Source: Ignavibacteria bacterium (GTDB lineage Bacteria; Bacteroidota; Ignavibacteria; UBA10030; SZUA-254). Taken from it: 32,974 nt of DNA. The notes below the pieces were generated by a model. That model did no database searches. It was not told the DNA's origin and saw only the letters and a list, made by a program, of their open reading frames with translations. Position numbers and translations under genes: made by a program. Location: assembly GCA_016178625.1 (NCBI GenBank), contig JACOSX010000067.1:1-32974 (forward strand), given 5' to 3'. Within the stretch, counting starts at the first letter, position 1; every line of letters starts with the position of its first letter. This document shows, one piece after another, positions 3,268 through 22,567 of this stretch.

Positions 3268-3410
3268 GTTACCACGCTCCTTTTTATTTTTTTCTCAAAG
3301 TCCTCAATGGGAACAAGAAGAATCGGTGATGAGAAGACATAATCAACGCTTTCATCGGGAACATTTTCCCTGAGCACGTAGAGGTAGTCGCCAAGGTATA
3401 GGGTGTTCAT
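3264..3410 (-). pseudogene. Remnant of a second methyltransferase 5' end (48-codon ORF)
   Basis: From ATG 3410 the first 23 codons match the first 23 codons of the methyltransferase that starts at 2875: 60 of 69 bases are identical. Of nine differences, seven are silent and two change the residue (C9Y, I17V). After codon 23 the similarity stops; the frame continues to 48 aa and ends in TGA overlapping the start of the 131-aa gene. The silent bias shows that the two copies diverged while both were constrained as protein, so this is a relic of a related gene and not a fresh duplication. It has an AGGA sequence 8 bases before the ATG and may still be translated as a leader for the operon. Confidence 0.75.
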
Positions 3411-3472
3411 GTTATTCATCCTGTTCTTTTTTCTTCAGCCAAAACATGGGGCTGACCAATAAGTAAGTTAAA

Positions 3473-17574: not shown

Positions 17575-18999
17575 CTATGGGATAGGAACATTGATCGGCT
17601 GGATCCCCGCAGTATCAAGATCGTAATGGAGGAACGACTCGAGATATGCTTTCATCCCCGCAACATAATATAATCGGTACCCTTGCGCGGTATACTTTTT
17701 AACTTCTGGGTACGACAGTGCATAGACGTAGTAAAGGTGTTGCTTCGTCCTCGATACGGCAACATCCTCATCCCGAAACATGTTCACGATTGTCTTGCTC
17801 GTCGTGACATGTGGATTCTCGACCCAAAAAATCGGACCGTTGGCAATCATTAGGATCGATGAATCTGGGAGTGCATAATGAGAAAGCGATTCCCTCCAAT
17901 CAAAAATCTTATTTCGTACTGAATACTCTCTGAGAATAAACCCTGTGCTGATACTCGGTGAAAAACGCTGCTTACCAAAATTATGCTCGATGAGATCAAC
18001 GTTAACAACGTTATACACCATGAGACAACCACAAATAATTCTCACGGCTTTGCGTGGCAGCGTTAGACCGAGCGCAATCAGCAAGAATGGCATCATCGGG
18101 ATGAGATACTCACGCTCATCGGCAAGAACAAAAAAAATGAAGAGCATCACCACGATTACCGCGACGCAGGTGAGAACGTAGCGATCTCTCTGCCGCAGCT
18201 TGTCAATGATCTGTCGACGATAGATCAATACACAAAGAAAAATGCCGATTGTTGCGATCAAACCAATCGAATACGTACTACGATACAGGAAGAACTCTAC
18301 CCTTTGGAGGATGGTGTAGTCTCTGACGTCGGCAATATATCTCGCAATCTCATCTCTAAACGCTGCTCGTAAGAACACTGGCAGGTAACACAGAATACTC
18401 ACTCCTGCAGTGACAAACGCCATGAGAACAAATTTCTTTTTTACTCTCTCACCTTCGAGCAAAAAAAAGAGAGGGAATAGGAGAATTGCATGCGTCAGTC
18501 GTGTTCCGACTGCCAATCCGAGGGTGATAGAGGCAAGAAGAAATCTTCCTTGCAGAACCAGGAGATAACTCAGCAAGATAAACGTGAGACCCCAGAGATA
18601 ATCCATCGTCACAGCCGAGTTCTTCCAAAGAATTGGCAAAAAGGCAAACGTCCACAGAAGAAGATTTGCTGCCTGCACTTCGATCTTCAACAGAATTCGT
18701 CGGAAGAGGAGCAGGGCGAGAACAAAGACTATCAATGTTGCGATGTTCGATGCGAACGAACCACCGAGACCGATCAGCGGTGCGTTGATAATTTCATAGA
18801 CCGGAAATCCGGGGAAGCGTGAAGGCTGGTAGACACCTTCATTCCACAACTTCGAGGCGCTCCATGCTACGCGCCAGCCATCGCCATCGGAACCGTAGCC
18901 GAGGGGTAGCGATGGAAGCCGCGTAAGAACAACTAACGCGATGAGAACGATAAGACGAGAACGAGACGTATTAACTGAAGGTGCGGATGATTCTCTCAT
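17575..18999 (-). CDS. GT-C-like multispanning membrane protein
   Basis: 474 aa with about ten hydrophobic helices between residues 18 and 345, then a soluble C-terminal domain of about 120 residues. The first loop holds 'GSDGDGWRVAWSASKLWNEGVYQPSRFPGFPVYE' (35-68): an acidic pair in the first periplasmic loop, as in GT-C glycosyltransferases that use polyprenyl-linked sugars, followed by an RFPGFP motif that I associate with related integral membrane proteins. The family cannot be fixed further. It is not in an obvious glycan gene cluster; its neighbours are thiI downstream (24 bases) and a hypothetical upstream. A protein-glycosylating or lipid-linked sugar role is plausible because secreted T9SS proteins surround it, but this is inference. 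Confidence 0.6.
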   Translation of the reverse strand: MRESSAPSVNTSRSRLIVLIALVVLTRLPSLPLGYGSDGDGWRVAWSASKLWNEGVYQPSRFPGFPVYEIINAPLIGLGGSFASNIATLIVFVLALLLFRRILLKIEVQAANLLLWTFAFLPILWKNSAVTMDYLWGLTFILLSYLLVLQGRFLLASITLGLAVGTRLTHAILLFPLFFLLEGERVKKKFVLMAFVTAGVSILCYLPVFLRAAFRDEIARYIADVRDYTILQRVEFFLYRSTYSIGLIATIGIFLCVLIYRRQIIDKLRQRDRYVLTCVAVIVVMLFIFFVLADEREYLIPMMPFLLIALGLTLPRKAVRIICGCLMVYNVVNVDLIEHNFGKQRFSPSISTGFILREYSVRNKIFDWRESLSHYALPDSSILMIANGPIFWVENPHVTTSKTIVNMFRDEDVAVSRTKQHLYYVYALSYPEVKKYTAQGYRLYYVAGMKAYLESFLHYDLDTAGIQPINVPIP

Positions 19000-21179: not shown

Positions 21180-21331
21180 GCAATTGATGGATAACGTCTC
21201 GCCGCACCACGTGTCGTATTTTATTCCCTTCGGGTTTAATACCCCGAAGCTTGCTTCGTTCTTTTTGGCCTCGTCATGCTGAAATGCTTTTGTTCAGCAT
21301 CCAAGCGTTGCCAATCAGCGTAGCCCTGCGT
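21180..21331. other. Gap with palindromic repeat sequence
   Basis: Between the 98-aa gene start and the truncated frame at 21332. It contains the first arm of the inverted-repeat element and a CCCCGAAGC-TT-GCTTCG palindrome near 21242. No gene or trusted promoter is seen. Confidence 0.5.
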
Positions 21332-21364
21332 TTAGATTCCGAACAAAAGCATTTCGGAATGACG
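21272..21364. repeat. 29-base inverted-repeat element
   Basis: Arms of 29 bases at 21272-21300 and 21336-21364 are inverted copies with four mismatches; both contain GAAATGCTTTTGTTC or its complement. The outer ends (CGTCAT / ATGACG) resemble the ends of the element at 3473-3572. The right arm lies in the reading frame at 21332-21604 and truncates it. Confidence 0.75.
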
Positions 21365-21604
21365 GAGAATTTGGGCTAAGCTCTTAATACCCCGCAGCTT
21401 GCTGCGGGGATGCTTTATTTTGTTTTGGCTATCTTGTTGAAAGAATGTATTGAAATTGTCTTTCAGCCAATCATAATAATCGTCCTCAACATAGTGGCAG
21501 AAAGCTTCCACAAGATCTTCAGTGCTGATATTGCTTGGTAGCTTGATTGCAGAATCCCGAAGACGTTGGCTTAAGAATTCTTTAACGACTTTTCTGTTTA
21601 GCAT
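21332..21604 (-). pseudogene. 5' fragment of an unidentified gene, cut short by repeats
   Basis: The frame starts at ATG 21604 with a strong AAGGAG site seven bases upstream. Residues 1-58 (MLNRKVVKEFLSQRLRDSAI, then 'STEDLVEAFCHYVEDDYYDWLKDNFNTFF') look like normal coding sequence. From about residue 62 the frame translates palindromic repeat DNA ('KHPRSKLRGIK' comes from the CCCCGCAGC palindrome) and it stops in the 29-base arm. So a gene that followed the restriction enzyme was truncated. I do not recognise its family; being next to a restriction enzyme, a methyltransferase or accessory gene is possible but unproved. Confidence 0.6.
21390..21409. repeat. Perfect CCCCGCAGC palindrome
   Basis: CCCCGCAGC-TT-GCTGCGGGG is a 20-base hairpin, a relative of the CCCCGAAGC palindrome near 21242. 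No T-run follows on the minus strand, so it reads as a repeat rather than a terminator. Confidence 0.7.
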
Positions 21605-22493
21605 AATTCTTCTCCTTAAAAAGAATAAAACTCAAACTGATTGCAGAAAAAAGGAGATGCTTTTGCGTTAGGGATGCGAAGGGCGAACGAAGTGAGGTGC
21701 GAAGCACGGGAGCAAAGCGAACCCCGAAGCAGCCCGACCCCACCCAGCTTTTGGGTGGGGGAACGCCCGAATAAAAACTATGACCCGATTCACTCAAGGA
21801 ATTCCGAACCCGCCCGCCCCAATCGCCTGCTTTGGTAATATAAACAAAGTCAAAGAAACGTAGCATTCCTTGTTGTTGGGGGTTAGTTATTTCTTTGTAG
21901 AAGTTAGTTGTGATGAAACCAACCTTGAAGTTTACCTGCGCTTGGTAGGAGAGTTCATACTTTGTTTTGATGGATTGGCAATCATCGGCAGTGGCAATGT
22001 CCATCAAAAGTTTCCATTTGTAAGTTTGTCCAACACGTTCACGAAGAGAAGTTTTCATTGAGTATATGATGACAGGTTTCTCAAGAGTATGAGCCTTGCT
22101 ATAAATCAACAAATCGATGTCTGGCTTCTGGATATCCTTGCCAACCTTGATCGTGGCGTATTCGTTAACGATGCGATGTCGCTTCCGCTTGAGCGTAATC
22201 TCAATATCTTCTGAAAGAATACCTACCTGCTGGTGTCTGATGAGTGTGTAGGCAACGAGCCCTTGAAAGGCGTTCCCAGCAACTGTCTTGCTCGCCTGGT
22301 CGAAGTCATTGATTACTCCCTGATCGATTCTTTTCTGAATGAGTTTGCCGACTTCGGGAATGCTACCCTGCATTATGTCGGTCAAACGGTTCATTGCTTG
22401 AGTGAGACCGACCTCCTGAGCCTCCTTCTCGAACTTCCTTTTCAGTGGGTTGAAGTAGTAACGACCTTCGAGTTCTTTGACTAGACCGTTCAA
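21582..22493 (-). CDS. BsaWI-like type II restriction endonuclease (CCGG family), 3' end replaced by repeat sequence
   Basis: 303 aa as read, of which about 221 look native. 'KPDIDLLIYS' (123-132) supplies the P-D pair, and 'IIYSMKTSLRERVGQTYKWKL' (142-162) the catalytic K147 and the R151-E152-R153 triad. R-(D/E)-R is the CCGG-recognition motif of this family. BsaWI itself cuts W^CCGGW; the specificity here is not certain. From about residue 222 (genome 21828 and below) the frame translates a GC-rich dispersed repeat, so the C-terminus is foreign. The start is TTG 22493, with an AGGAG site six bases upstream. No matching methyltransferase is next to it; the beta-class enzyme 19 kb away has no evident link. 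It may be inactive or may have lost its partner. Confidence 0.75.
   Translation of the reverse strand: MNGLVKELEGRYYFNPLKRKFEKEAQEVGLTQAMNRLTDIMQGSIPEVGKLIQKRIDQGVINDFDQASKTVAGNAFQGLVAYTLIRHQQVGILSEDIEITLKRKRHRIVNEYATIKVGKDIQKPDIDLLIYSKAHTLEKPVIIYSMKTSLRERVGQTYKWKLLMDIATADDCQSIKTKYELSYQAQVNFKVGFITTNFYKEITNPQQQGMLRFFDFVYITKAGDWGGRVRNSLSESGHSFYSGVPPPKSWVGSGCFGVRFAPVLRTSLRSPFASLTQKHLLFSAISLSFILFKEKNYAKQKSR
21661..21828. repeat. GC-rich dispersed repeat inserted in the restriction enzyme gene
   Basis: This stretch has the GCGTTAGGGATGCGAAGGGC...CGAACCCCGAAGCAGCCCGACCC pattern I know from repeats in Bacteroidota-type genomes. Within it is the hairpin CCCCACCC-AGCTTTT-GGGTGGGG (21738-21760). It makes up the last 80 codons of the restriction enzyme frame. 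Confidence 0.65.
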
Positions 22494-22567
22494 AGTGTTC
22501 TCCTGTGGTTGTGTGATTGATATTACTGCTTACGGTCATAATATAATCGCCTTTTTCTTTATTGATT

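Follow-up and report, generated by a model that had tools for sequence, protein, structure and literature searches.

A probable remnant of a type II restriction-modification system with a truncated CCGG-family nuclease in an Ignavibacteria bacterium

Introduction

How does a restriction nuclease gene persist in a genome where its partner methyltransferase is not found? Under the addiction model, loss of the methyltransferase is tolerated only by a cell whose nuclease is dead or whose recognition sites are shielded in some other way (excerpt of PMC3874152). The question is raised by a nuclease gene in a draft genome of an Ignavibacteria bacterium (assembly GCA_016178625.1, 3.36 Mb in 177 contigs, 97% complete), from which we analyzed a stretch of 32,974 nucleotides, hereafter the window. 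Comparison with relatives, structure prediction and searches of the whole assembly were combined to ask what remains of the system.

Results

The nuclease gene and its relatives

The nuclease frame occupies 21582-22493 on the minus strand, where the sequence and the list of open reading frames give 303 open codons from a TTG start, and it is present as a single copy in its own genome (Table 1). Relatives were collected by scanning genome contigs with three aligned nucleases via two short peptide patterns, which yielded 70 loci, and by a scan of viral contigs, which yielded one; the resulting sample of 71 loci takes in only relatives that carry the two short peptides. A search of 395 genomes of the phylum returned six with a match to the nuclease, its own included, where the strong matches are G228 (88%, same order) and G390 (54%) and three are weak. 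Among 98 genomes of the order, G228 is the only close match and two more are weak. G228 is Ignavibacteria bacterium K_DeepCast_100m_m2_316, and its locus, L042 (VGVZ01000013), encodes a nuclease of 244 aa that is 88% identical to the window protein over residues 1-231.

Table 1 Features of the nuclease locus in window coordinates
Feature	Position	Strand	Basis
Native nuclease part	21798..22493	-	Residues 1-232 of 244 (L042 count); Pfam RE_BsaWI; 88% identity to L042 over residues 1-231
TTG start codon of the nuclease	22491-22493	-	Sequence
AGGAG ribosome-binding site, six bases upstream of TTG	22500..22504	-	Sequence; common to L003 and L042
D125-x-D127, predicted metal-binding residues	22113..22121	-	Invariant in 48 of 48 aligned sequences; aligns with E167-x-D169 of PfoI
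Catalytic K147	22053..22055	-	Invariant in 48 of 48 aligned sequences
R151-E152-R153 recognition motif	22035..22043	-	R151 and E152 invariant in 48 of 48; R153 nearly so
Non-native tail of the frame, ~70 codons, in place of the terminal helix	21582..21797	-	No counterpart in 71 relatives; pLDDT < 50 from residue 233
Hairpin-rich element read through by the tail	21660..21777		Single copy in own genome; both ends matched in G004
Small ORF, start 21604	21332..21604	-	Residues 1 to about 56 match a 77-aa gene in G408 (L145 1501-1731)
Dispersed repeat of the genome	21220..21421		Close copies, complete or partial, on 10 further contigs

Residues 109-169 of the window nuclease match Pfam family RE_BsaWI (PF18643) with an E value of 1.1e-13 and 51.5 bits, against a curated cut-off of 26.2. 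Inspection of an alignment of 48 sequences (47 relatives chosen out of the 71, plus the window nuclease) reveals 29 columns that are invariant across the relatives, and all 29 remain invariant once the window nuclease is added. The catalytic lysine is followed by an R-(D/E)R motif (K147...R151-E152-R153), a feature of CCGG-family enzymes as defined in excerpts of PMC4652773 and PMC6344858. The lysine and the RER motif had been described as undamaged in an earlier note on this DNA, and both are indeed present, together with D125 and D127. The PD...K...D/E active site of this family places an acidic residue 10-13 positions past the lysine; no acidic residue occurs at K+10 to K+13 here, D127 and K147 are invariant, and the D125-x-D127 arrangement fits the permutation seen in PfoI.

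The predicted fold is closest to PfoI

With 47 of the 71 relatives aligned, the model of an intact relative reaches a pLDDT of 94.3 and ends in a helix at residues 232-242. Up to residue 219, the model of the window protein shows the same succession of elements, except that an early helix is split in two; its residues 233-303 all fall below a pLDDT of 50 and are predicted to be disordered. Structural comparison of the intact-relative model ranks PfoI first (Z 22.9), followed by AgeI (14.2), PspGI (13.7), Bse634I (10.7), BsaWI (10.6) and NgoMIV (10.4), and Foldseek likewise places PfoI first. These fold matches support membership of the CCGG family well, but not an exact target. The family had been named in the earlier note, and the above-threshold RE_BsaWI match, the modeled fold and the R-(D/E)R motif all agree with it.

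PfoI (type IIP, PDB 6eko) cleaves T/CCNGGA (excerpt of PMC6344858). Its match extends over 232 residues, aligned to the range 1-244 of the intact relative's model, where E167-x-D169...K187 of PfoI lines up with D125-x-D127...K147. Identity is about 20%, PfoI carries an RxKE motif in contrast to the classic R-E-R found here, and the window protein differs from PfoI in being without the terminal helix. BsaWI (W/CCGGW, PDB 4zsf, Pfam RE_BsaWI) shares with the window nuclease an R-(D/E)-R at +4 to +6 after the catalytic lysine. In contrast, it is a weaker structural match, with its Z of 10.6 covering 159 residues, and its second acidic catalytic residue, D175 (K+10), has no counterpart in the window nuclease.

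MvaI cuts CCWGG and BcnI cuts CCSGG. Nucleases of the MvaI/BcnI type neighbor 7 of the 71 loci; given these neighbors and the PfoI-nearest fold, a CCNGG-like target seems at least as likely as WCCGGW. The WCCGGW specificity assigned previously is without support, since PfoI outranks BsaWI in the structural comparison.

The native sequence ends at a junction

The window nuclease follows the L042 protein to residue 231-234, beyond which the last ~10-14 residues are gone. DNA homology between the window and G228 runs from 22547 down to about 21793 at 78% and then ends; that is to say, it covers about 54 bases upstream of the start through codon 231-234 of 244. Downstream of the end of homology nothing in the window matches G228, such that neither the methyltransferase gene nor the nuclease's terminal part is present. 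The alignment with full-length relatives proposed in the earlier note thus finds a terminal segment of ~10-14 residues missing, and it moves the end of the native sequence from the previously suggested residue ~222 to 231-234.

Counted from the FFD motif, 28-35 residues remain to the protein end in 70 of the 71 relatives and 18 in L067, compared with 89 in the window. The conserved terminal sequence is kept in 69 relatives, with L067 and L068 frameshifted there, and the extension appears in none. A shared C-terminal extension among relatives was the observation that the earlier note had named beforehand as counting against its reading; with 0 of 71 relatives sharing it, that reading stands. 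The tail as a conserved protein extension is rejected on this count and on its pLDDT below 50.

The tail had also been taken for a dispersed repeat, which does not hold: a 255-bp BLAST search and a 23-base pattern search with up to 3 mismatches each find one copy of the tail element in its own genome. What is dispersed in this genome is another element, located at 21220-21421 behind the small ORF, which is modular and contains an inverted repeat within it. G004, a genome of another family of the order, has a hairpin-rich relative of the tail element that shares both ends (84% over 77 columns, 96% over 26) and sits in a different place. Altogether the hairpin element is matched in 4 of the 395 phylum genomes, its own included.

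Because the frame stays open for ~70 codons past the junction, one might read the extension as a real and functional new C-terminal domain of the nuclease. We consider this scarcely credible: the pLDDT is below 50 throughout the tail, the 71 relatives offer no counterpart, part of the tail is read out of the hairpin element that is placed elsewhere in G004, and the tail frame overlaps the start of the next ORF by 23 bases.

Alternatively, the living strain may possess the full nuclease and its methyltransferase, and the draft may be misjoined near repeats. The assembly is indeed a draft of 177 contigs, a repeat that has close copies on 10 further contigs is only 0.4 kb off, and the arrangement occurs in 0 of 71 relatives. 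Against such an artefact, the junction (about 21793-21800) falls outside both repeat elements, though only 16 bp from one, the assembly contains the sequence that follows just once, and no other contig holds a close match to the partner methyltransferase at 97% completeness. An assembly error is therefore quite improbable.

Intact cassettes pair the nuclease with a methyltransferase

Inspection of the L042 cassette reveals the 244-aa nuclease followed after 4 bp by a 420-aa DNA methyltransferase and, after a further 7 bp, by a 229-aa nuclease of the MvaI/BcnI family, for which the nearest solved structure is MvaI (E 4e-21). The window shares with this cassette the TTG start, the ribosome site and the closely similar nuclease. 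It differs in that L042 has an intact end, the methyltransferase and MvaI/BcnI-type nuclease behind it, and other genes on both sides.

A methyltransferase lies within 1.7 kb of the nuclease in 69 of the 71 relatives, which amounts to every readable neighborhood (69 of 69), L080 and L110 having been left out of the count because both are at contig ends. The partner is an amino-methyltransferase of the L042 type in 57 of the readable loci and an m5C methyltransferase in 12. The m5C cases (L048, L050-L052, L054, L055, L060, L063, L069, L082, L083 and L109; 12 of 71) represent partner exchange, and the enzyme of L048 is cut by the contig end.

The nuclease is damaged in nine loci (L067, L068, L084, L101, L103, L105, L107, L109 and L111), where some of the damage may reflect sequencing errors; L092 was not counted, as its stop precedes the likely start. 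Five of the nine (L103, L105, L107, L109 and L111) retain a full-length or nearly full-length methyltransferase beside the damaged nuclease. The methyltransferase is broken as well in L067, L068 and L101, and that of L084, close to the contig end, is partial. The reverse arrangement, in which the nuclease is intact and the methyltransferase is missing or is disrupted anywhere but at a contig end, occurs in 0 of the 69 readable loci. A possible exception to this pattern is L080 (6004-7228), whose full-length nuclease is followed by 454 bp without a methyltransferase save for a 25-codon match at 40%, and which may represent an intact enzyme without a partner; in its close relatives L075 and L076 the methyltransferase is 50 bp away. 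With this possible exception, the 71-locus comparison largely agrees with the addiction model, given the five loci with damaged nuclease and intact methyltransferase.

PfoI-like CCGG-family and MvaI/BcnI-family nucleases occur together in 7 of the 71 loci: L042 (6001-8699), L064, L072, L075, L076, L080 and L112. The MvaI/BcnI-type gene is at most 150 bp from the first nuclease or its methyltransferase in all seven, and 1 kb away in an eighth locus, L045. Six of the seven cassettes have one methyltransferase; the L080 contig ends before any is seen. They come in three gene orders and are found in bacteria, an archaeon and a viral contig. With two unrelated nucleases beside one methyltransferase, the L042 cassette is of some interest itself. 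Our literature search returned no paper on this locus or on a PfoI-like and MvaI-like pair, which does not prove that none exists. The cluster of Clostridium cellulovorans and LlaJI, as described in an excerpt of PMC11779793, likewise have two nuclease genes per cluster; they have two methyltransferases, whereas L042 has one, with nucleases of unrelated families.

The cognate methyltransferase is not found in the genome

A cognate methyltransferase of either partner type has no match in the window. Across the 97% complete genome, the partner amino-methyltransferase finds only motif-level matches (best E 0.0017), and the m5C kind only matches of 24-31% identity. The locus thus falls short of a complete type II restriction-modification system, with no close match to the cognate methyltransferase and a nuclease that is not full length. 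It is possible that the cognate gene lies in the part missing from the assembly.

The earlier statement that no methyltransferase is visible stands for the cognate partner, of which there is no close match, but not overall: an N6/N4 methylase-Mrr fusion, unrelated to the cognate partner, is encoded in the window at 1295-2875, and several methyltransferases occur elsewhere. Family matches outside the window fall on eight contigs, where PF01555 is matched on C44, C129, C12, C132, C26, C39 and C122 (the last below cut-off) and an m5C methyltransferase on C86. On C26 (contig 26 of the genome, L117 6067-7829) an amino-methyltransferase gene is directly followed by a nuclease of the MvaI/BcnI family (E 3e-59; nearest solved structure MvaI, 1.1e-12).

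The opening ~23 codons of the methylase-Mrr fusion (2807-2876) recur 535 bp upstream (3342-3411) at 87% identity, followed by unrelated sequence. This repeat is perhaps the remnant of a second methylase-Mrr copy.

These findings bear on whether the truncated enzyme still cuts while another methyltransferase of the host protects overlapping sites in trans, for which the C26 system is the best candidate. The catalytic core and start region of the nuclease are intact and under constraint, candidate genes are present in the adjoining pair on C26 and the m5C methyltransferase on C86, and inclusive protection is described in an excerpt of PMC3874152, with CCWGG and CCNGG as an example. Against protection in trans, the window nuclease has lost the terminal sequence that 69 of 71 relatives retain. 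Similarity between the C26 methyltransferase and the cognate partner is confined to the surroundings of motif I (38% over 50 aa), and a target like that of MvaI or BcnI would include only a fraction of the CCNGG sites. Such protection is unlikely. The specific form in which the shortened nuclease is folded, selected and active as a solitary enzyme, protected by the C26 methyltransferase, is distinctly unlikely; if true, it would be a naturally occurring example of a nuclease whose antidote is supplied by a different system, the two having overlapping targets of the CCNGG type.

The remaining gene appears constrained

Over 229 codons, the window and G228 differ with pN 0.066 and pS 0.742, where the latter is saturated. 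As saturation of dS makes dN/dS unreliable as a number, that value was not used, and only pN versus pS and branch counts were considered. Polarization with four relatives assigns 7 derived amino-acid changes to the window branch and 6 to the G228 branch, while 13 are assignable to neither. This pattern shows, at the level of sequence, a remaining nuclease gene that appears to be under purifying selection, with no other damage. No excess of changes is seen of the kind expected of a gene that was free of constraint for more than a small share of the time since divergence, and the loss thus looks recent. Either the loss is indeed recent, or the shortened protein is still selected; we infer that the truncation is probably a recent event.

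A probable restriction-modification remnant

Taken with the structural and comparative results, the locus is most probably the remnant of a type II restriction-modification system that has lost the end of its nuclease and its methyltransferase, with the enzyme probably inactive and harmless. The earlier note had read the locus as a restriction system in decay, its enzyme either inactivated by the repeat or protected by a methylase encoded elsewhere, and apart from the role of the repeat the truncation and the absence of the extension from all 71 relatives support this core. Comparison with the intact cassette adds that the methyltransferase was lost at the same junction as the end of the enzyme.

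The cassette was probably acquired horizontally, and its ancestral order would have been nuclease then methyltransferase, followed in the nearest relative by the MvaI/BcnI-type nuclease. A rearrangement would then have removed the last ~10-14 nuclease codons together with the methyltransferase gene, leaving the hairpin element, the small ORF and the dispersed repeat adjoining the cut end. The truncated protein presumably does not cut DNA in the cell, whether misfolded, unstable or unable to assemble, and loss of the antidote would have been tolerated since the toxin had been disabled as well. One junction removing both is the simplest way to satisfy the addiction model, although two steps, with the methyltransferase and the tail lost separately, are possible.

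The last helix of BsaWI gives a partial parallel: its residues R259 and W262 belong to the tetramer interface, and the W262A mutant shows no activity on lambda DNA, yet the double mutant R259A/W262A is a dimer that still cuts (excerpt of PMC4652773). Since the double mutant cuts and the relationship is distant, these mutants are only suggestive for the window enzyme, and loss of the helix interface alone need not kill it. With the core fully conserved, activity is also possible on sequence grounds.

Solitary restriction enzymes and solitary methyltransferases likewise represent one half of a system left behind, where solitary restriction enzymes are the less frequent kind (excerpt of PMC3874152). 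The nuclease left in the window differs from these in having been cut short as well, at the point where the methyltransferase was lost. The decay is of an ordinary, known kind, and the locus is an unusually clean and fresh example, relevant to the addiction model in that both losses meet at one junction and the nuclease is otherwise undamaged.

The small ORF and the surrounding genes

The cassette stands behind a conserved FeS protein-OmpA pair, the order of which is kept in six loci of the family (L132-L137). Among the window genes between OmpA and ThiI, only 17575-18999 is found in those loci, in L135. These loci did not provide a clean empty site, and that they lack the nuclease is taken from the search of the family genomes. 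The 14 other genomes of the family that were searched hold no close copy of the nuclease and one weak match, on another contig, a distribution to be expected of acquired DNA. Mobile copies of the nuclease were sought in 50,697 phage and 72,556 plasmid records with no match at E 1e-5; one viral contig (L112) carries a relative.

After about residue 56, the small ORF departs from its G408 homolog and enters the dispersed repeat. G408 is its sole other match among the 98 order genomes, located directly behind a methyltransferase-nuclease pair whose nuclease is of the RE_BsaWI family (E 2e-24); the small ORF has no match in the plasmids or in the nuclease loci. As a regular part of such systems it is rejected, G408 being a single case, though it is perhaps an accessory gene of methyltransferase and RE_BsaWI systems. 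The nuclease frame and the small-ORF frame each end in a repeat element or just behind one, such that two neighbors with possible restriction-modification ties are both without their native 3' ends.
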